This document shows, piece after piece, positions 9,836-64,000 of a DNA stretch of 64,000 bases. Position 1 is the first letter of the stretch, and each line of letters begins with the position of its first letter. Source of the stretch: Streptococcaceae bacterium ESL0687. Lineage in GTDB: Bacteria; Bacillota; Bacilli; Lactobacillales; Streptococcaceae. The translations under genes were made by a program, and so were the position numbers. Where the stretch lies: NCBI GenBank assembly GCA_029392475.1, contig CP113940.1:930001-994000 (forward strand), given 5' to 3'. The notes beneath the pieces were generated by a model, which saw only the letters and a program-made list of their open reading frames with translations, was not told where the DNA came from and did not search any database.

Positions 9836-12046
9836 GGTAAAATGCCCCTCCTTCTCCTTCATAATTATTTGACCATCTAAATCTGTTCGAAAAATATCTA
9901 TACCATTTTTTTCAAATCGGTCCAAGGTTTCTAGGTTAGGATGTTTGTAAAGGTTATTTTTCCCGCAGGAGATCAGAGCCACTTGAGTTTTTATATGCCT
10001 TAAAAAGTCCTCAGATGAACTGGTTTTACTACCGTGGTGGCCGGCTTTTAAAATATCAACAGGAAGCTTTTTATAACTTTCCATCAAGGATTTCTCCTCT
10101 TCTCCTTCGGCATCCCCCATAAAAAGAAAGTTCTTGGATAAAAGCTTGCCGTAAAGGACGACCGAATCATTATTTCCCCCGTCTCCAGTCTTTAGGGGGC
10201 CAAGAACTGTCAAACGAGAACCAAAGATTTTAAAGTCGTCCCCTGGTTTTACCGGATGAATCCTTGTTTCACCACCGATTTTTTCTAGTTTTTCAAGTAA
10301 ATTCTTACTTTTTAGAGCTCCCTTGGCCAACCAAATTTCCTTGATTTTAAAATTTTCTGCTAGCTCCAAAAGATCTCCCATATGATCTTCGTGGGCATGG
10401 GTAATAACTAACTTATCAATCTTTCCTATCCCTTTACCGTTTAAATAAGGTATCAATGTTCTTTTAGCATTTGAATCTTTTTTTCTTATAGACCACTTTT
10501 CCTTGGAAGGAAGATCAAGCCGTCCTCCGACATCAATTAGGACATTATTCTGATTAAACCTATCCCTTAAAAAGATACTATCACCTTGCCCGACATCAAC
10601 AACTGAAATATATGGGATAAAAGAAAATTTAGTCAAAAAAAGGAGACAGACTACTAAAGGAGATAAAAACGTCAGCTTTCGCCAGCTGAAATAATCAATC
10701 AAATAAAAAAGAAGTAAAAATACAAGGAAGATAATAACAATGGAAGGTTTACCAAAAATGATAGGCTTCATGATCCTATCATTAAGTAGGCTGACAAGCC
10801 TTTCCAAATAAACAAAGAGATAGTTGGGAAAGCTAAGAATCTTCGGCAAGAAAAAACTTACTGGTAGACTGCAGGCTAATAGGGGCAGCAAGAAATGAAT
10901 AAAAAGATAGGAGAATACAGGCGTTAAAATAAGGGACAAGGGCTGAAAGCTATGAAAAAAGTAAATGGAAAGAGGAGCTGCCAGAACTGAAAGGAGGGTT
11001 GACTTAAAAAGATTATCCAGTAACTCATTTTTAAATTTTTTAGTCTGTGAAAGAAGGGTTATGGCAAATGATAGGAAAAAAGATAAGACACCAGCTTCAG
11101 TTAAAAGAAAACTAGGTCTTACAAGCATAAAAACCATAAGAGTTAGGGCAAAATTTTCAAGTCCTTTAATTCCATAATTTGATAAGTTTTTCTGAAGTAG
11201 GCTTCTACTTACAGATACTAAAAAACCTGTTAGAGCACCGTAGATAAGAGACAAAGGAATTAACAAAAGATTTGTTCCCTCAATGCTTAAGCCAAGCCTT
11301 AAAATCAACCTCCTTAAATTACTAATAAAAAAGTTAATATGCATGCCACTTAGGGCAAAAAGGTGTACCAGGCCAAGACCTGTGTAAATATCCCGAACCT
11401 CAGAAAAATCCCTACTATAAAAGCCCAAAAGAAGGCTTAGCATATACTTATTCATCGGTTCTGGAACAAGTCCTTCAATATGATTAATCAACTTCTTCCT
11501 CATAAGTTCCAACTTTTCCAGTGGATTAAATCCCTTTCTTAGTCTTACTTTCTTTATCTCCTGGATTTCAAGAAGCTGGTAAATTCCCTTGGTCTTTAAA
11601 TAATTTTGATAATCAAAGGTATTTTCATTGCGCCTTTTTTCAGGTTCACTCAGACTGGCTGAAATATCAAAGGATACATTAGTTGATAGTGATTTTAAGC
11701 TTTTTTGCTCAGCCTCGGACTTAATTTTGTAAAAGGCTTGATACTTTTGGGACTTATTTCGTCCAATAAAGGATAGCTGATCCCCGTTAATATCTAAGCT
11801 GTCAATCTTAACCCTTATGGTATCCACCGCTCCTGGGCTACTTGCTGCTCTTATTTTTATCTGATTATATTTATCTACCAGGAAAAAATATCCGCTGAAA
11901 AGAACCACCACCAAAAGATAGCGGTAGCCAAAATTCTTACAAATCAAAAAAAGAGAAAGAATTAACAGTCCCAGGCACAAAAAGTTAAAGGAAAAAATAC
12001 AGTAATAACTTAAGGTTAAAGGACAAACTAGATAAATCTTTTTCAT
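9818..12046 (-). CDS. comEC: Competence DNA channel ComEC/Rec2
   Basis: Polytopic protein of 742 residues that carries single-stranded DNA across the membrane during natural transformation. N-terminal membrane helices precede an OB-like soluble part, then the Competence domain with many helices (about 200-500). A C-terminal metallo-beta-lactamase-like domain has VVDVGQGDSIFL, VLIDVGG and the metal motif THAHEDHMGD intact. The length is normal and no frameshift is visible, so the gene is probably functional. It follows comEA by 11 bp. The 35-bp tandem repeat at its stop codon may mark slippage. Confidence 0.93.
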   Translation of the reverse strand: MKKIYLVCPLTLSYYCIFSFNFLCLGLLILSLFLICKNFGYRYLLVVVLFSGYFFLVDKYNQIKIRAASSPGAVDTIRVKIDSLDINGDQLSFIGRNKSQKYQAFYKIKSEAEQKSLKSLSTNVSFDISASLSEPEKRRNENTFDYQNYLKTKGIYQLLEIQEIKKVRLRKGFNPLEKLELMRKKLINHIEGLVPEPMNKYMLSLLLGFYSRDFSEVRDIYTGLGLVHLFALSGMHINFFISNLRRLILRLGLSIEGTNLLLIPLSLIYGALTGFLVSVSRSLLQKNLSNYGIKGLENFALTLMVFMLVRPSFLLTEAGVLSFFLSFAITLLSQTKKFKNELLDNLFKSTLLSVLAAPLSIYFFHSFQPLSLILTPVFSYLFIHFLLPLLACSLPVSFFLPKILSFPNYLFVYLERLVSLLNDRIMKPIIFGKPSIVIIFLVFLLLFYLIDYFSWRKLTFLSPLVVCLLFLTKFSFIPYISVVDVGQGDSIFLRDRFNQNNVLIDVGGRLDLPSKEKWSIRKKDSNAKRTLIPYLNGKGIGKIDKLVITHAHEDHMGDLLELAENFKIKEIWLAKGALKSKNLLEKLEKIGGETRIHPVKPGDDFKIFGSRLTVLGPLKTGDGGNNDSVVLYGKLLSKNFLFMGDAEGEEEKSLMESYKKLPVDILKAGHHGSKTSSSEDFLRHIKTQVALISCGKNNLYKHPNLETLDRFEKNGIDIFRTDLDGQIIMKEKEGHFTIVKMR

Positions 12047-12057
12047 GATTTCTCCCC

Positions 12058-12726
12058 CTACTTAATAAAAATACTATCCTTTAACTTTTCAAGGGATTTA
12101 GCTCCAAAGCCTCCAACCTTTTGTAGATCTTCAATACTTTTAAAGTTCCCATTTTCCTTGCGGTAATCAATGATATCTTGAGCCTTTTTCAACCCGACTC
12201 CTGGTAGCTTTTGAAGTTCGCCTAAATCAGCTGTATTTATATTTACCTTAGTAGATTCCTGCTTGTCATTATTATCGGTGGGTTGATTTTGAAGGTTCTC
12301 AAAAGAGGTGCTAGCTTCTCCGACCTTTGCTACATAAACCACCATTTCATCTGTCAACTTCTGGGCTAGATTCACAGATTTACTGTCGGCTTCCTTATTA
12401 AGACCTCCTGCAAGTTTTAGGGCATCATCAACCCTTGCATTAGAAGCTAGTTTATAGATTCCAGGATTCACAACCTCGCCCTTAACATCAACAACTAAAA
12501 ATCCATCCCCGTCCTCACCAACAAGATCATCACCATCACTGTCTTGTTCAAATTGCTCAATCTTACCAGAAAGATTGTACCCATCTTTACTTTCAAAATC
12601 AGATTTTTTACTGGGACTGATTAAAAAATAAGCAAAAAACCCCAAAAACAGCAGGCCACTAGCAATTACAAGGGGGATAAAATATCTCTTTTTTCTTAAA
12701 TTTTGCAGGTAATTTTTTAATTCCAT
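12058..12726 (-). CDS. comEA: Competence DNA receptor ComEA
   Basis: Membrane-anchored double-stranded DNA receptor, 222 residues. One N-terminal membrane helix (about residues 17-35) is followed by an acidic linker and an SLBB-type domain (VVDVKGEVVNPGIYKL). The C-terminal tandem helix-hairpin-helix has VNINTADLGELQKLPGVG. It hands DNA to ComEC encoded downstream. An AAGGAG ribosome-binding site lies upstream. A T-run followed by TTCGTATA lies just upstream and could be a weak competence sigma-factor site. Confidence 0.93.
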   Translation of the reverse strand: MELKNYLQNLRKKRYFIPLVIASGLLFLGFFAYFLISPSKKSDFESKDGYNLSGKIEQFEQDSDGDDLVGEDGDGFLVVDVKGEVVNPGIYKLASNARVDDALKLAGGLNKEADSKSVNLAQKLTDEMVVYVAKVGEASTSFENLQNQPTDNNDKQESTKVNINTADLGELQKLPGVGLKKAQDIIDYRKENGNFKSIEDLQKVGGFGAKSLEKLKDSIFIK

Positions 12727-12756
12727 CTTTTACAAAACTCCTTTTTAAATATATAC

Positions 12757-12788
12757 GAAAAAAATCCTCAAATTTCCTTGAGGATTTT
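12757..12788 (-). terminator. Terminator after the ABC permease gene
   Basis: On the minus strand AATCCTCAA and TTGAGGATT form a stem followed by seven T. It separates the ABC transporter operon from comEA. Confidence 0.85.
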
Positions 12789-12792
12789 ACTT

Positions 12793-14022
12793 CTATCTAT
12801 TTTTTTTAAAGTTATTAATCAGCTGACGGATAATCTTGTCATCGCTATAACTTAAAACATTTTTAGCATATATCTTTTCAGCTCCCTTGGCAATCAAAAC
12901 TACAGCAACTAGTTCAATTACAAGGGCCACAAGAGCTTCCTTCATGTCAGCATAGTGAATAGCAAGCCTAGTAGGCATTAAGGACTGTGAAATAAAAGGG
13001 ACATATGATAGAACCTTAATAACTAAGTTTCCAGGAGATCCAGAGACTCCTAGTCCAATAAGATAGCCGACCATTGAAAGATAGGTAACTGGAGTAACTG
13101 CCTGTTGGACCTGACTTTGATCATTAACTAAAGAAGCCACAATTGAAGCCAGAACTAGATATCCAAAGAGGGAAATCAGGACCATGGTAACAGTAACTGC
13201 AAGAAAACCTAAATCAACACCTGTTACAAACTTCATTCCCATGGCCACAAGTTCATTTTTCCTTAAGAGGAAATAGGCAGTAAATCCACTAAACAGATAG
13301 ATTAGAATTTGCGTGCAGGCCAGGGAGAAGACACCGATTAATTTTCCGTAATACTGAACCTTGGCACCTGTAGCTGCCAGAAGGATTTCCATAATTCTTG
13401 AAGATTTTTCATTGGCAATCTCCTGGGCAATCATTCCCACATAGATGGTCAAAAGGGTAAAGATAAAGATTCCTGCAATTGTCCCTACAAGAGAGTTGGC
13501 TCCGTTTGCCAGATCTCCTCCAACCGTATCATCTCCTTTTTTGTCTAAACTTTTCACAGTCAAATCAGCATTTTTTTCCAGGGCAGCAATTTGGTCACTG
13601 GTTAGATTAAGTTGGGCTGCTTGGGCCAAAAATTGATATTGATTTAAAATTTTTCGAATTGAACCCTCGTCCAGTTTGGCATTGGTTTCACTGGTAACTA
13701 TTAAGGTATACTTGTCATCAGATTTTTCAAGATAACCGTCAATATCACCCTTGTCTAGCTGCTCTTGAGCGACTTGAATATTTTCTAAATCCGAAAGGTC
13801 TAGATTTTGCATGCCGTCCTTCTTAATAAATTGAGTTAGGGCTGAGTCATTTACGATTCCAAGTTTTGGCGAACTTGAGTCCGATGTGGTCATAAATATA
13901 AAGACTAGTCCCACTCCAATCAAGGTAATAATTAAAGGAGATAAAACAATTCCCCAGTAACCAATGGTTTTAATTCTTGACTTATAGACCTGTCTTGCGA
14001 CAATAAGTGTTTCTCTAATCAT
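12793..14022 (-). CDS. ABC-2 type exporter permease (NatB/YhaP-like)
   Basis: Permease of 409 residues. One N-terminal membrane helix (about 20-45) is followed by a large extracytoplasmic domain of about 140 residues and then five or six helices (about 180-390), the layout of NatB/YhaP-type ABC-2 permeases. The EIANEKSSRIMEILL segment is typical of the family. It overlaps the ATPase gene by 8 bp and must form the transporter with it. The substrate is unknown; relatives export sodium ions or toxic compounds, so no specific function is claimed. Confidence 0.88.
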   Translation of the reverse strand: MIRETLIVARQVYKSRIKTIGYWGIVLSPLIITLIGVGLVFIFMTTSDSSSPKLGIVNDSALTQFIKKDGMQNLDLSDLENIQVAQEQLDKGDIDGYLEKSDDKYTLIVTSETNAKLDEGSIRKILNQYQFLAQAAQLNLTSDQIAALEKNADLTVKSLDKKGDDTVGGDLANGANSLVGTIAGIFIFTLLTIYVGMIAQEIANEKSSRIMEILLAATGAKVQYYGKLIGVFSLACTQILIYLFSGFTAYFLLRKNELVAMGMKFVTGVDLGFLAVTVTMVLISLFGYLVLASIVASLVNDQSQVQQAVTPVTYLSMVGYLIGLGVSGSPGNLVIKVLSYVPFISQSLMPTRLAIHYADMKEALVALVIELVAVVLIAKGAEKIYAKNVLSYSDDKIIRQLINNFKKNR

Positions 14023-60362: not shown

Positions 60363-60387
60363 AAAAAGCATGCAGGGCATGCTTTTT
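60363..60387 (-). terminator. Terminator of the two-gene cassette
   Basis: AAAAAGCATGC and GCATGCTTTTT around a 3-nt loop, followed by T on the minus strand. It isolates the cassette from the lipoprotein gene. Confidence 0.85.
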
Positions 60388-60486: not shown

Positions 60487-61299
60487 CTAGTTGAATAAAG
60501 ATATTATTAAGCCATGTAATTTTTGGGCAGCCTCAGCTGCAGCAGCTGCCATTGGTACGCCCTTTAATACAACCTGGATTGTATTAATTGCTGTCTTAAT
60601 AATTTGCTTTTTGGGTTGCGTTTCCTCTCTCTCAGATTCTATGAGTCTAATATTATCCATTATAACACCTTGAATAACTACATTATCAGATAGTTCTTTT
60701 TCAACGTTAGCCTTTAATTCAGAAATACATTCATCAATATCTGACTGGTTTACCTGAATATTTTGCGTTGCCTTTAAAGTACTGTTATCATTAGAAATGT
60801 TTACTTGGGCTTGACCACCACTTACATTTATCACAAATTTATTCTCCTCATCATATCCCATGTCTATTGAAATCTCGGATAAATATTCCTCAACCATATT
60901 TACAAAAGGTGTAAAGACTCGATTCCCAAATTCTTTAACCATATCTTGATACTTCCTGGAAGATGTATAGCCCCGACCAAGAATATGAGTTTGAACAGAA
61001 TCATCTTCACTAATCACTTTCAAAATTTGGTAAATAGAACTAATTTCTTGTTCCGGTGTATCACCGGTATCCAAAATATAACCATAATATTGAGATGTCT
61101 CAAAAATTTCATTTCTCAAATTAGGACGTTCTACATAAACACTTTGGATGTATTCACTAATTATTGGTGTATTATCAATATATTCAACAAACATTTTAAT
61201 TTTAGAGTCAACCTCACCGTGATGAGCATTAATAACTCCCGAAGCCAGTAATCTAAATCTTTTGCTTATTTTTTTTAAATCTTTTTTGTTAATTTCCAT
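60487..61299 (-). CDS. Uncharacterised helical protein with Ala-rich C-terminus (cassette gene 2)
   Basis: Protein of 270 residues that I cannot assign to a named family. The N-terminal half is helical (KRFRLLASGVINAHHGEVD, FVEYIDNTPIISEYIQSV, then DTGDTPEQEISSIYQIL). The middle has GRGYTSSRKYQDMVKEFGNR. A polar segment FVINVSGGQAQVNISNDNST follows, with KATQN after it, a pattern I recall from other uncharacterised Firmicute proteins. The C-terminal 25 residues (KGVPMAAAAAEAAQKLHG and hydrophobic end) may be a membrane-active helix. The ATG at 61299 has GGAG 9 nt upstream, inside the preceding gene; GTG at 61314 is an alternative. Confidence 0.7.
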   Translation of the reverse strand: MEINKKDLKKISKRFRLLASGVINAHHGEVDSKIKMFVEYIDNTPIISEYIQSVYVERPNLRNEIFETSQYYGYILDTGDTPEQEISSIYQILKVISEDDSVQTHILGRGYTSSRKYQDMVKEFGNRVFTPFVNMVEEYLSEISIDMGYDEENKFVINVSGGQAQVNISNDNSTLKATQNIQVNQSDIDECISELKANVEKELSDNVVIQGVIMDNIRLIESEREETQPKKQIIKTAINTIQVVLKGVPMAAAAAEAAQKLHGLIISLFN

Positions 61300-61747
61300 T
61301 TTGCATTTCTCCACAAAAAGGACAATAGCCTCCTATCATTTTCAAACCTGGACTAATTTTAGCCTCTTTATGGCAACATTCATAAGTTTGAATTTCTAAA
61401 ATATCTATTCTCGAAACAAGTTGATCTGTAGGTTCCTCTTTTATTTTTTTACCAGCTTTATATTTTATACTCCCATCTTTGAATCTTTCTTCCAATTTTA
61501 TATTGAAACCATTAAAAAGATTTAATACATGATTCTTAGCAATTTTTAACGAAAGTTCTCTAATTTCCTCAGTAATTATACTATCAGGAATTAACCCACA
61601 GCTTGGGCACCAAATTTGAATTTGAGATTTATCTTCAAAGTCAGTAGGTGTTATCTTAAATAACTCGCTACACAATGAACATTGGAAAGCAGAATAACCA
61701 TCCAAATCTGTTGGAATTGGCACACTCAACATCTTTTCATTAGCCAT
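61289..61747 (-). CDS. Double zinc-ribbon protein (cassette gene 1)
   Basis: Protein of 152 residues with two Cys clusters. Cys23/Cys26 (QCSLCSE) pair with Cys47/Cys50 (WCPSCGL), and Cys124/Cys125/His126 (ECCHKEA) pair with Cys142/Cys145 (YCPFCGE). Between them is a charged helix (about 55-90). No catalytic motif is seen. It may act as sensor, adaptor or nucleic-acid binder for the protein encoded downstream, which overlaps it by 11 bp. ATG at 61747 lies 10 nt after AGGAGG; a TTG at 61753 (4 nt) is possible. Confidence 0.72.
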   Translation of the reverse strand: MANEKMLSVPIPTDLDGYSAFQCSLCSELFKITPTDFEDKSQIQIWCPSCGLIPDSIITEEIRELSLKIAKNHVLNLFNGFNIKLEERFKDGSIKYKAGKKIKEEPTDQLVSRIDILEIQTYECCHKEAKISPGLKMIGGYCPFCGEMQNGN

Positions 61748-61892
61748 ATACAATAATCCTCCTAAATCCTTTCATATTTCATATTTAACCTTTCTTTTTT
61801 TAAAATTTTAAAATTATTTTTATAACAATATCCCCCATATACTATATGATACCATGTGGATTTATTCCCACAAGACCGAAAAACCTGGCAAA

Positions 61893-61919
61893 CAAAAAAG
61901 CACGTAGTTACGTGCTTTT
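61893..61919 (-). terminator. Terminator of the hsd operon
   Basis: AAAAGCACGTA and TACGTGCTTTT form a stem that starts in the hsdS stop codon and is followed by T on the minus strand. Confidence 0.82.
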
Positions 61920-63117
61920 AAACAAACATTTTTTGTAAAAATCCTTTTTTAAGGGTTTTAAGCTGGTCAAGTTTTTTCTCTGCTTGATTAATTTTTTTAT
62001 CAAAATCTGCAAAGAAGGTTCCGATTTTTTCCTGTTCTGGGAGGGAAGGGAAAATTATTTTATATTGTCCCAACTGTGGGACCGTTAATTGAGGAACACC
62101 AGTAGATTCTATAAAAGGATTGCATATATTTATATAATTTTCTAAAAAGTAAATATTAAATTTTGATTTTATAGTCAACAAACGAACTACTGGAGTAAAA
62201 TTATTTATTTGAGCACGTGCAAAACCAACATCTCCCCTACCTGTTACTGTTACTGCTGGTGCTTCTACCTTGTAACTATCAGAATATCCAACGACACCAT
62301 TGTTCAATAAAGAGTTTGCAAGAATTGGGTACTTCCCTCTCTTTTTGGATGCTTTTTTAGGCATATCTCCACCTGCTGAAATAACGCTCTTATCTTTTAA
62401 TTTACACATCTCCCACTCCCCTTCAAATTCTTGGAATCTAAGTTGTGGGATTTTTTGTCCTGGGGCTGGGAACATTTTTTGGAGGTAGCCTTTTTTCATT
62501 TCTTTAAGGTCTGCCAGTCTCTTTTCATACAAGGCGATTAACTTATCCAGCTGGGCAAAGAAGGCTCCGATTTTTTCTTGTTCTTTATAATCTGGAAAAC
62601 AGACCGAAGTTTTAGATATATTTGTCTTACTCAATGATAAAACTTTTGTACCCTGCATCAATTTATATAATGATTCATGATAAATTTTACTATTAAGATA
62701 ATGCCCTAAATATAAGGGAGCAAAAATATTTTTTGGACGGGCTACAATAGTATGTAAACCTGCTACAATAGGATGTTTTTTAACATTACATACTTCTATG
62801 GATTTTCCAACACTCTCATCTTCGGCAGCATCCGCTATAACAATATCTCCATCTTTTAAAAAAGATTTTTTAAATTTATCTTCAGATGCTCCCCTTATAT
62901 ACGGAATCATCTTATCTGAAGCATCTAAAACAGAATTAAATTTTGTCAAAATATCACCATAATGGATATTTTTAATTTTTCCTTCATCATATACTAGATT
63001 TTCACGTGATAATGAATTAGTCGGAACTGACAAATCAAATAAATTATCAAATTTCTCTTCTTCCCACTCCCCTTCAAAGCCTTTAAATCTTAGTTGGGGT
63101 TTTTCTTTTTTGGCCAT
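61918..63117 (-). CDS. hsdS: Type I restriction-modification specificity subunit HsdS
   Basis: DNA-recognition subunit of 399 residues. Two target-recognition domains (about 20-165 and 225-365) are separated by conserved helical spacers. Both spacers carry EQEKIGAFFAQLDKLIALYE or the similar EQEKIGTFFADFDKKINQAE, ending in KKGYLQKMF and KKGFLQKMF. Each half begins with PQLRFKGFEGEWE or PQLRFQEFEGEWE. Each domain reads half of a bipartite target. The gene starts with ATG overlapping the hsdM stop by 1 bp (TAATG). Confidence 0.94.
   Translation of the reverse strand: MAKKEKPQLRFKGFEGEWEEEKFDNLFDLSVPTNSLSRENLVYDEGKIKNIHYGDILTKFNSVLDASDKMIPYIRGASEDKFKKSFLKDGDIVIADAAEDESVGKSIEVCNVKKHPIVAGLHTIVARPKNIFAPLYLGHYLNSKIYHESLYKLMQGTKVLSLSKTNISKTSVCFPDYKEQEKIGAFFAQLDKLIALYEKRLADLKEMKKGYLQKMFPAPGQKIPQLRFQEFEGEWEMCKLKDKSVISAGGDMPKKASKKRGKYPILANSLLNNGVVGYSDSYKVEAPAVTVTGRGDVGFARAQINNFTPVVRLLTIKSKFNIYFLENYINICNPFIESTGVPQLTVPQLGQYKIIFPSLPEQEKIGTFFADFDKKINQAEKKLDQLKTLKKGFLQKMFV
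62009..62584. repeat. Pair of direct repeats within hsdS
   Basis: A 30-bp segment at 62009-62038 and another at 62555-62584 are identical at 28 positions (core GCAAAGAAGG and TCCGATTTTTTC). They code the conserved spacer of each half and flank one target-recognition domain. Confidence 0.75.
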
Positions 63118-64000
63118 TAGTCTGCTCCTTTGTCTGGAGTTTTACTAGGGCTAAAGAGGTCAATCATCAAATCAAGCATGGCCTTGTTTTCTGGTGTTTC
63201 TTCAAGCTCTTCAAGCATGCCCTTAAATATTTCCTCTTGGGCCGTGATTTCTGCATCAAGCTCCTTCATACTTTGAGCCAGAGCCACCATATCAACAGGT
63301 TCTTCTTCTTCAAAAGTATCGACATATCGTGGGATATTTAGGTTGTAGTCATTTTCCTTGATTTCCTCAAAAGTTGCCAAATGAGCATATTTATCAAGAT
63401 CCTTGCGGTCGGTATAAGCCTTAAGGATTTTTTCAACCTGCGTATCATTTAAAGTATTTTGATTTTTCCCCTTGTCAAAGTCATTACTTGCATCAATGAA
63501 GAGGACATCGCGATTTTGCTTGTTTTTCTTAAAGACCAAAACTGAGGTTGGGATGGAAGTTCCATAAAAAAGATTAGCGGGAAGCCCAATGACAGCATCC
63601 AAAAAGTTCTTTTCAATCAAGGTCTCCCGAATCTTACCTTCTGCTGCCCCTCTAAAGAGCACACCGTGGGGGAGGACGATGGCCATGACTCCTTCACTAT
63701 TGAGGTGGTAAAGGCCGTGGAGGATGAAGGCGAAGTCAGCCTTGGTCTTAGGAGCAAGTTTTCCGTAGTCGGAGAATCTTGGGTCCTTGAGTTTTGACTC
63801 TGAATTGTCCCACTTGGCTGAATAAGGAGGGTTTGCGACAACTGCGTCAAAGCTTCTAGGCTGGTCTATCCCCTGAGCGTTAACTCCGTCAGGCCAGTCG
63901 GATTCAAGGGTGTCACCATTGTGGAGGGTCATATTATTATAAGAAACCCCGTGCATCATAAGGTTCATCCGGGCCAAGTTATAGGTTGTGGTGTTGAGTT
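63117..64000 (-). CDS. hsdM: Type I restriction-modification methyltransferase HsdM (5' end outside window)
   Basis: C-terminal part of the N6-adenine methyltransferase subunit. The catalytic NPPY motif is in VVANPPYSAKWDN, with the preceding LARMNLMMHG and NGDTLESDWP segments of the family, and IVLPHGVLFRGAAEGKIRE after it. The frame stays open to the window end, where the N-terminal part and probably hsdR lie. It forms a complex with HsdS and methylates the site that HsdS recognises. Confidence 0.94.
   Translation of the reverse strand, partial: LNTTTYNLARMNLMMHGVSYNNMTLHNGDTLESDWPDGVNAQGIDQPRSFDAVVANPPYSAKWDNSESKLKDPRFSDYGKLAPKTKADFAFILHGLYHLNSEGVMAIVLPHGVLFRGAAEGKIRETLIEKNFLDAVIGLPANLFYGTSIPTSVLVFKKNKQNRDVLFIDASNDFDKGKNQNTLNDTQVEKILKAYTDRKDLDKYAHLATFEEIKENDYNLNIPRYVDTFEEEEPVDMVALAQSMKELDAEITAQEEIFKGMLEELEETPENKAMLDLMIDLFSPSKTPDKGAD

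Follow-up and report, generated by a model that had tools for sequence, protein, structure and literature searches.

We analysed a 64,000-nt stretch of DNA from Streptococcaceae bacterium ESL0687 (the window; coordinates are window positions) and focused on two minus-strand genes, M14A and M14B, that lie between hsdS and the gene of a DUF4767 lipoprotein (Table 1). The stretch holding the pair is AT-rich, with a GC content of 0.32 compared with ∼0.40 in its surroundings. The open reading frames (ORFs) and the sequence agree with the original prediction of a compact two-gene cassette, in which M14A and M14B overlap by 11 bp and the ribosome-binding site of M14B is located inside M14A; an alternative M14B start is possible at a GTG (61314). 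The two terminators said to bracket the pair were also recovered in a pattern scan (2 found, 0.9 expected), and the one behind hsdS separates hsdRMS from M14A-M14B. The hsdR gene lies upstream of hsdM, beyond the window, and was matched by the PADLOC model REase_I on L068. Neither ORF is a chance product, because full-length homologues exist as an adjacent pair elsewhere.

Both proteins are represented in a catalogue of defence candidates. M14A matched the PADLOC-DB model PDC-M14A (PDLC04447; E=2e-48, residues 1–148 of 152), and M14B matched PDC-M14B (PDLC04449; E=6.7e-87, residues 1–268 of 270); the PDC-M14 models of PADLOC-DB v2.0.0 comprise PDLC04447 for M14A together with PDLC04448–04453. 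With both model matches, adjacent genes and hsdR, hsdM and hsdS alongside, the window pair belongs to the catalogued candidate PDC-M14, and the expectation that neither protein would fall into a defence family, and that the pair would be new, has to be dropped. The entry presumably originates from the Payne et al. 2024 preprint (doi 10.1101/2024.01.29.577857), to which PMC12255303 and PMC13092281 refer. Searches of Pfam and NCBIfam gave no family above the curated cut-off for either protein, a sequence search of the PDB gave nothing significant for either, a PDB fold search gave no Foldseek match below E 0.8, and an annotated phage collection contained no M14A or M14B match. The prefix PDC stands for “PADLOC defence candidate”; according to PMC12813430, members of this class either lack validation or have no known mechanism. 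New here are the tie of M14A to zinc-ribbon/HEPN fusions and the finding that the C-terminal module of M14B is common to abortive-infection proteins.

Strong M14B matches were present in seven sampled Bacillota genomes, the window's included, and strong M14A matches were also found in the six M14B genomes besides G000; the only other M14A-like protein, from G311, is a fusion that occurs in the absence of M14B. Weak PDC-M14A matches, which account for the majority of the 152 matching genomes and are mostly short and limited to the first zinc ribbon, were excluded from these counts. The anticipated linkage of homologues was evident, in that M14A adjoins M14B at every M14B locus read, mostly at defence or mobile loci, and as a rule the two genes overlap or abut. 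At two loci, L009 and L057, they are transcribed divergently, and therefore the link is not merely an operon habit. Across 14 loci, M14A distances covaried with M14B distances (Mantel r=0.90, a value reached by none of 9999 permutations), indicating that M14A and M14B travel together.

The neighbours of the pair were called by PADLOC, or by annotation and homology. Type I restriction genes occur at the M14 loci of the window, L015, L017, L020/L075, L021–L023 and L073, and at L022/L023 the pair is embedded in the order hsdS-M14A-M14B-hsdR. Type III restriction genes lie near the pair at L018 and L019, a DUF499/DUF3780/DUF1156/PLD-helicase set at L070, PtuA/PDC-M01 at L074, and SpbK with a SIR2-like gene at L071; L017 additionally carries bSEFIR, L016 carries BnzB and PDC-M09A, and L013, which holds a diverged pair on a Lysinibacillus plasmid, carries AbiD. 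The majority of M14 loci thus contain restriction, Septu, TIR or Abi genes, compared with 0 of 40 Bacillota 20-kb control stretches that held probe defence genes (E 1e-8), a rough comparison in which the probes were taken from M14 loci, each was ignored at its locus of origin, and the stretches were mostly from other Bacillota genomes, so that the evidence lies mainly in the PADLOC calls. The defence-island setting proposed earlier is well supported by these data. At L018, a 370-aa protein (11875–12987) with no Pfam or PADLOC match is encoded between M14B/DUF4391 and the type III set.

The pair adjoins hsd genes in the window and at L015, L017, L073 and L075, and it could accordingly be an accessory of restriction that modulates or backs up the Hsd enzyme, for example by sensing restriction products or the state of the DNA, and that is inactive without hsd. 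We consider this quite improbable, given that many homologues have type III, DUF499-type, Septu-like or TIR loci as neighbours, that others are carried by phages or plasmids whose DNA, as far as it was read, shows no restriction genes, and that in the window the hsdS terminator stands between the pair and hsd.

A comparison with the sister genome G003 argues for an exchangeable defence locus. There, the same interval is bounded by the lipoprotein gene (73% identical) and a Nudix gene (89% identical) and is occupied (L122 6152–10891) by a truncated hsdR and a type II system with a restriction enzyme and two methylases. The hsdR product is a 218-aa remnant 90% identical to the N terminus of the window HsdR. 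DNA similarity between the window and G003 stops just past the left-end terminator. Because the G003 interval holds the type II set and the hsdR remnant between the same flanking genes, we infer a replacement here between hsdMS-M14AB and the type II set, in either direction. Together with this swap, the analysis makes an independent case that the catalogue entry PDC-M14 is a real defence cassette, which we regard as very probable.

We next turn to the proteins, for which the AlphaFold2 (AF2) alignments were shallow (9 rows for M14A and 10 for M14B). In the M14A model (9 sequences; predicted local distance difference test (pLDDT) 81.5), two small beta units are linked by a 29-residue helix (residues 60–88), and all eight Cys residues lie within these units. 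Conservation of the Cys residues in 14 homologues bears out the predicted two four-ligand zinc sites, and no catalytic motif was seen in M14A. In the second site, the L009 homologue has CxxC where others have adjacent CC, and the L056 homologue has a single Cys of the adjacent pair.

M14A aligned over 145 columns with a fusion family found through L030 (hhalign probability 99.4%, E=2e-21), which indicates homology between M14A and the N-terminal half of these zinc-ribbon/HEPN proteins. The family occurs in Bacillota, Campylobacterota, Alphaproteobacteria, Actinomycetota and Bacteroidota, mostly on plasmids, and its C-terminal domain has invariant R265, H266, H270, G273 and D276, of which the RHxxxH portion is read as a putative HEPN RNase motif (Rx4H). 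Elsewhere, then, the M14A module is fused to an RNase-like effector, and the zinc module therefore acts in cis with the effector there. This homology is the best clue to M14A, which may be a targeting or sensing module that is elsewhere built onto an effector, and the division of the pair into sensor and effector is plausible. The fusion family is possibly an undescribed defence effector. Its members are labelled “hypothetical protein” wherever annotated, and the L128 gene immediately precedes an AbiH gene.

The M14B model (10 sequences; pLDDT 76) consists of helices at residues 5–146, a disordered stretch at 150–182 and four helices at 185–269. The helical N-terminal half and the polar segment that the original prediction had described are both present in the model, and the segment holds one conserved motif rather than repeats. 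A C-terminal helix inserting into membranes was not supported: the best 19-residue Kyte-Doolittle mean is 1.29 in the window protein and 0.6–1.7 in homologues, below the usual cut-off in most, and AF2 packs the tail as helix 4 of the bundle. Fold look-alikes of this C-terminal module (C-module) were helical bundles only (Z ∼10, e.g. Avd and CSP3).

M14B might itself be a divergent HEPN-type RNase switched on by M14A, since three entries of a HEPN toxin gave weak alignments to its N-domain (7ae2, Z=6.8, root-mean-square deviation 3.3 over 106) and other proteins combine an M14A-like module with HEPN. However, the 7ae2 Z score is below chance level for helical proteins, Rx4-6H is absent from the window M14B and at scattered positions in the others, and profile comparison brought up no link between M14B and the HEPN fusion family. 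HEPN activity of M14B was rejected because Rx4-6H is not conserved among 15 sequences and the profile link is missing, and this explanation is very hard to sustain.

Profile searches revealed that M14B is assembled from modules found in other proteins; the profiles were cut from the M14B alignment, and domain-search E-values assume a nominal target number of 1000. The N-domain matched the C-terminal part of ∼500-aa membrane-segment proteins at L060 and L063 and the C terminus of the shorter L062 protein. The small genes neighbouring the L060 and L063 proteins carry the conserved motif and a C-module-like tail. Because the N-domain on the one hand and the motif with this tail on the other are split over neighbouring genes at these loci, M14B seems to unite in one protein two parts that these loci encode separately. 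The C-module itself matched L065 (an AbiTii protein), L058, L059, L064, L066 and two TetR proteins, as well as small proteins at L061 and L067 beside NACHT/STAND genes. The PADLOC AbiTi model covers the C-module stretch of L065 (E=3.6e-11) and L066 (1.6e-4).

Several architectures around these modules were noted in passing. A membrane-segment protein with a Cas4-like start is accompanied by a small AbiTi-like protein at L060 (1411–3389), L063 (1486–3302) and L064 (499–1890); the Cas4-like start of L060 matched NCBIfam cas4 at E=0.007, below the cut-off. Small C-module proteins stand beside NACHT/STAND NTPases at L061 (1486–3321) and L067 (1498–3354), with a clear motif in L061, and TetR-family regulators carry an M14B-like C-terminal module at L011 (1486–2406) and L012 (862–1779).

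The motif, Q-V-N-I-A...S-T-I-x-A, lies in the disordered stretch of M14B (pLDDT ∼31), and its core Q-[VILA]-N was present in 15 of the 15 M14B sequences compared; a five-residue motif pattern arises in ∼1% of shuffled proteins. It could be a homotypic, possibly amyloid-type, adaptor with which NACHT/STAND NTPases and other separate proteins recruit the C-module, with M14B as a self-contained version. Disorder in the monomer model is consistent with such a role. So are the copies of the motif in both neighbouring genes at L058, L060 and, less clearly, L063, and the motif-bearing small protein at L061, which lies beside a NACHT protein whose N terminus has a similar stretch by eye. Against this, the M14B motif is internal rather than terminal, and we hold the adaptor role to be unlikely. 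In its broadest form, with the motif and AbiTi-like module as a general plug-in effector cassette of Bacillota defence that different sensors (M14A pairs, NACHT/STAND, membrane proteins and AbiTii domains) would recruit via homotypic contacts, as in an undescribed bacterial analogue of amyloid adaptor signalling, the idea is similarly doubtful.

From the family membership of the two proteins, the constant pairing of their genes, the defence surroundings, the exchangeability of the locus and the domains present, we propose that M14A and M14B form a mobile cassette for phage defence, carried within restriction-modification loci and defence loci of other kinds. M14A would recognise an infection cue, or bind nucleic acid or a phage protein, and control M14B, which would stay inactive until signalled. 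The N-domain and flexible motif of M14B may mediate pairing or oligomerisation, and its AbiTi-like C-module would halt the growth of the infected cell (abortive infection), so that the pair would act as a second layer once restriction fails. The complete chain, in which M14A senses, M14B arrests growth through its AbiTi-like module and the motif serves assembly, is a tentative proposal that falls somewhat short of being probable.

Several observations weigh against this proposal. No recognised defence gene was found in the DNA read at L069, L072, L076 (a short contig), L077 and L080; integrase- or recombinase-like genes are present at L069, L072 and L077, and most of these five contexts lie on mobile elements or phages. 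L080 (IMGVR_UViG_2868238732_000001) is a 126-kb viral contig, distantly similar to 132-kb Clostridioides phages, that holds M14A-M14B, possibly as a phage-borne defence against rivals. This contig also seems to encode its own ribonucleotide reductase and DNA polymerase. A literature search returned no paper naming PDC-M14 and no experiment on it, the presumed source preprint being outside the search. A catalytic motif is absent from both proteins, and which of them is sensor and which is killer is a guess. The apparent AbiTi link of M14B is only transitive: no direct match to the AbiTi model was listed for the window M14B or two other M14B proteins, and an AbiTi search over 299 genomes gave no match anywhere, controls included, and is hence uninformative. 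Finally, although AbiTi of C. catus inhibited E. coli growth, AbiTi of L. lactis showed no toxicity in this host, and C. catus AbiTi was not neutralised by AbiTii (PMC3985639).

The toxicity of the C. catus AbiTi homologue also bears on a toxin-antitoxin-like pair, in which M14B would be a toxin that M14A neutralises directly and that phage infection or loss of the cassette would free. Overlapping genes with the putative regulator first, strict pairing, and the occurrence of M14 genes on plasmids, phages and integrative elements are in keeping with this model. We nevertheless judge it improbable, as the divergent layout of L009 and L057 is unusual for a toxin-antitoxin operon, AbiT showed no antitoxicity (PMC3985639), and fusion of the M14A fold to an effector-like HEPN domain suggests targeting rather than an antitoxin role.

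Table 1. Features of the M14A-M14B locus and members of the related fusion family (window positions, or locus positions where a locus number is given)
Feature	Position	Strand	Basis and remarks
M14A (PDC-M14A)	61289..61747	-	152 aa; ATG at 61747, stop 61289-61291; ORF list and PADLOC
M14B (PDC-M14B), putative effector	60487..61299	-	270 aa, helical; ATG at 61299, stop at 60487; ORF list and PADLOC
M14B ribosome-binding site GGAG	61309..61312	-	inside M14A, 9 nt 5' of M14B ATG; sequence
M14A ribosome-binding site AGGAGG	61758..61763	-	sequence
M14A zinc site 1 (Cys23, 26, 47, 50)	61598..61681	-	invariant in 14 homologues
M14A zinc site 2 (Cys124, 125, 142, 145)	61313..61378	-	142/145 invariant, 124/125 at least 90% (14 homologues)
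M14B N-terminal helical domain, residues 5-146	60862..61287	-	AF2
M14B conserved flexible motif, residues 161-180, GGQAQVNISNDNSTLKATQN	60760..60819	-	homologue comparison; low pLDDT
M14B C-terminal four-helix module, residues 185-269, putatively AbiTi-like by transitivity	60493..60747	-	AF2 and profile matches
Left-end terminator	60363..60387	.	pattern scan; G003 similarity boundary
hsdS terminator	61896..61919	-	pattern scan
hsdS, type I specificity subunit	61918..63117	-	Pfam Methylase_S, E=3.6e-32
hsdM, continues beyond window end	63117..64000	-	PADLOC MTase_I on L068
Zinc-ribbon/HEPN members	L030 997-1956; L123 5953-6957; L124 5950-6939; L125 4953-5951		
Further zinc-ribbon/HEPN members	L126 4935-5969; L127 4989-5933; L128 1276-2334		

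Compared with known systems, the cassette is closest to PDC-M14, with full-length matches for both proteins, the same gene pair and the same defence context; no difference in the proteins was found, and the window pair stands after hsdS behind a terminator, not inside the hsd operon. A possible likeness to bacterial amyloid signalling (BASS), where the C terminus of an effector and the N terminus of a neighbouring NLR share a short motif, lies in the paired motifs of adjacent genes at L058, L060 and L063 and in the NACHT neighbour of L061, the latter judged by eye only. AbiT of Lactococcus is also a two-gene system, and the AbiTii-domain protein L065 ends in a module matched both by the C-module of M14B and by the AbiTi model. 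It differs in that the partner in the window is a zinc-ribbon protein and the AbiTi likeness of M14B appears by transitivity only; the AbiTii domain (PF18864) was matched in neither window protein in Pfam and PADLOC scans. The NACHT/STAND-associated proteins L061 and L067 have the C-module of M14B and the motif (clear in L061), but they lack the N-domain and are partnered by a NACHT/STAND NTPase instead of M14A. The zinc-ribbon/HEPN proteins (L030 and L123–L128) resemble M14A in their N-terminal half, whereas they carry their own C-terminal RHxxxH HEPN-like domain in place of a separate M14B. Taken together, these shared modules tie both proteins to the zinc-ribbon/HEPN family, AbiT and the NACHT-associated small proteins and thereby suggest testable roles for each.
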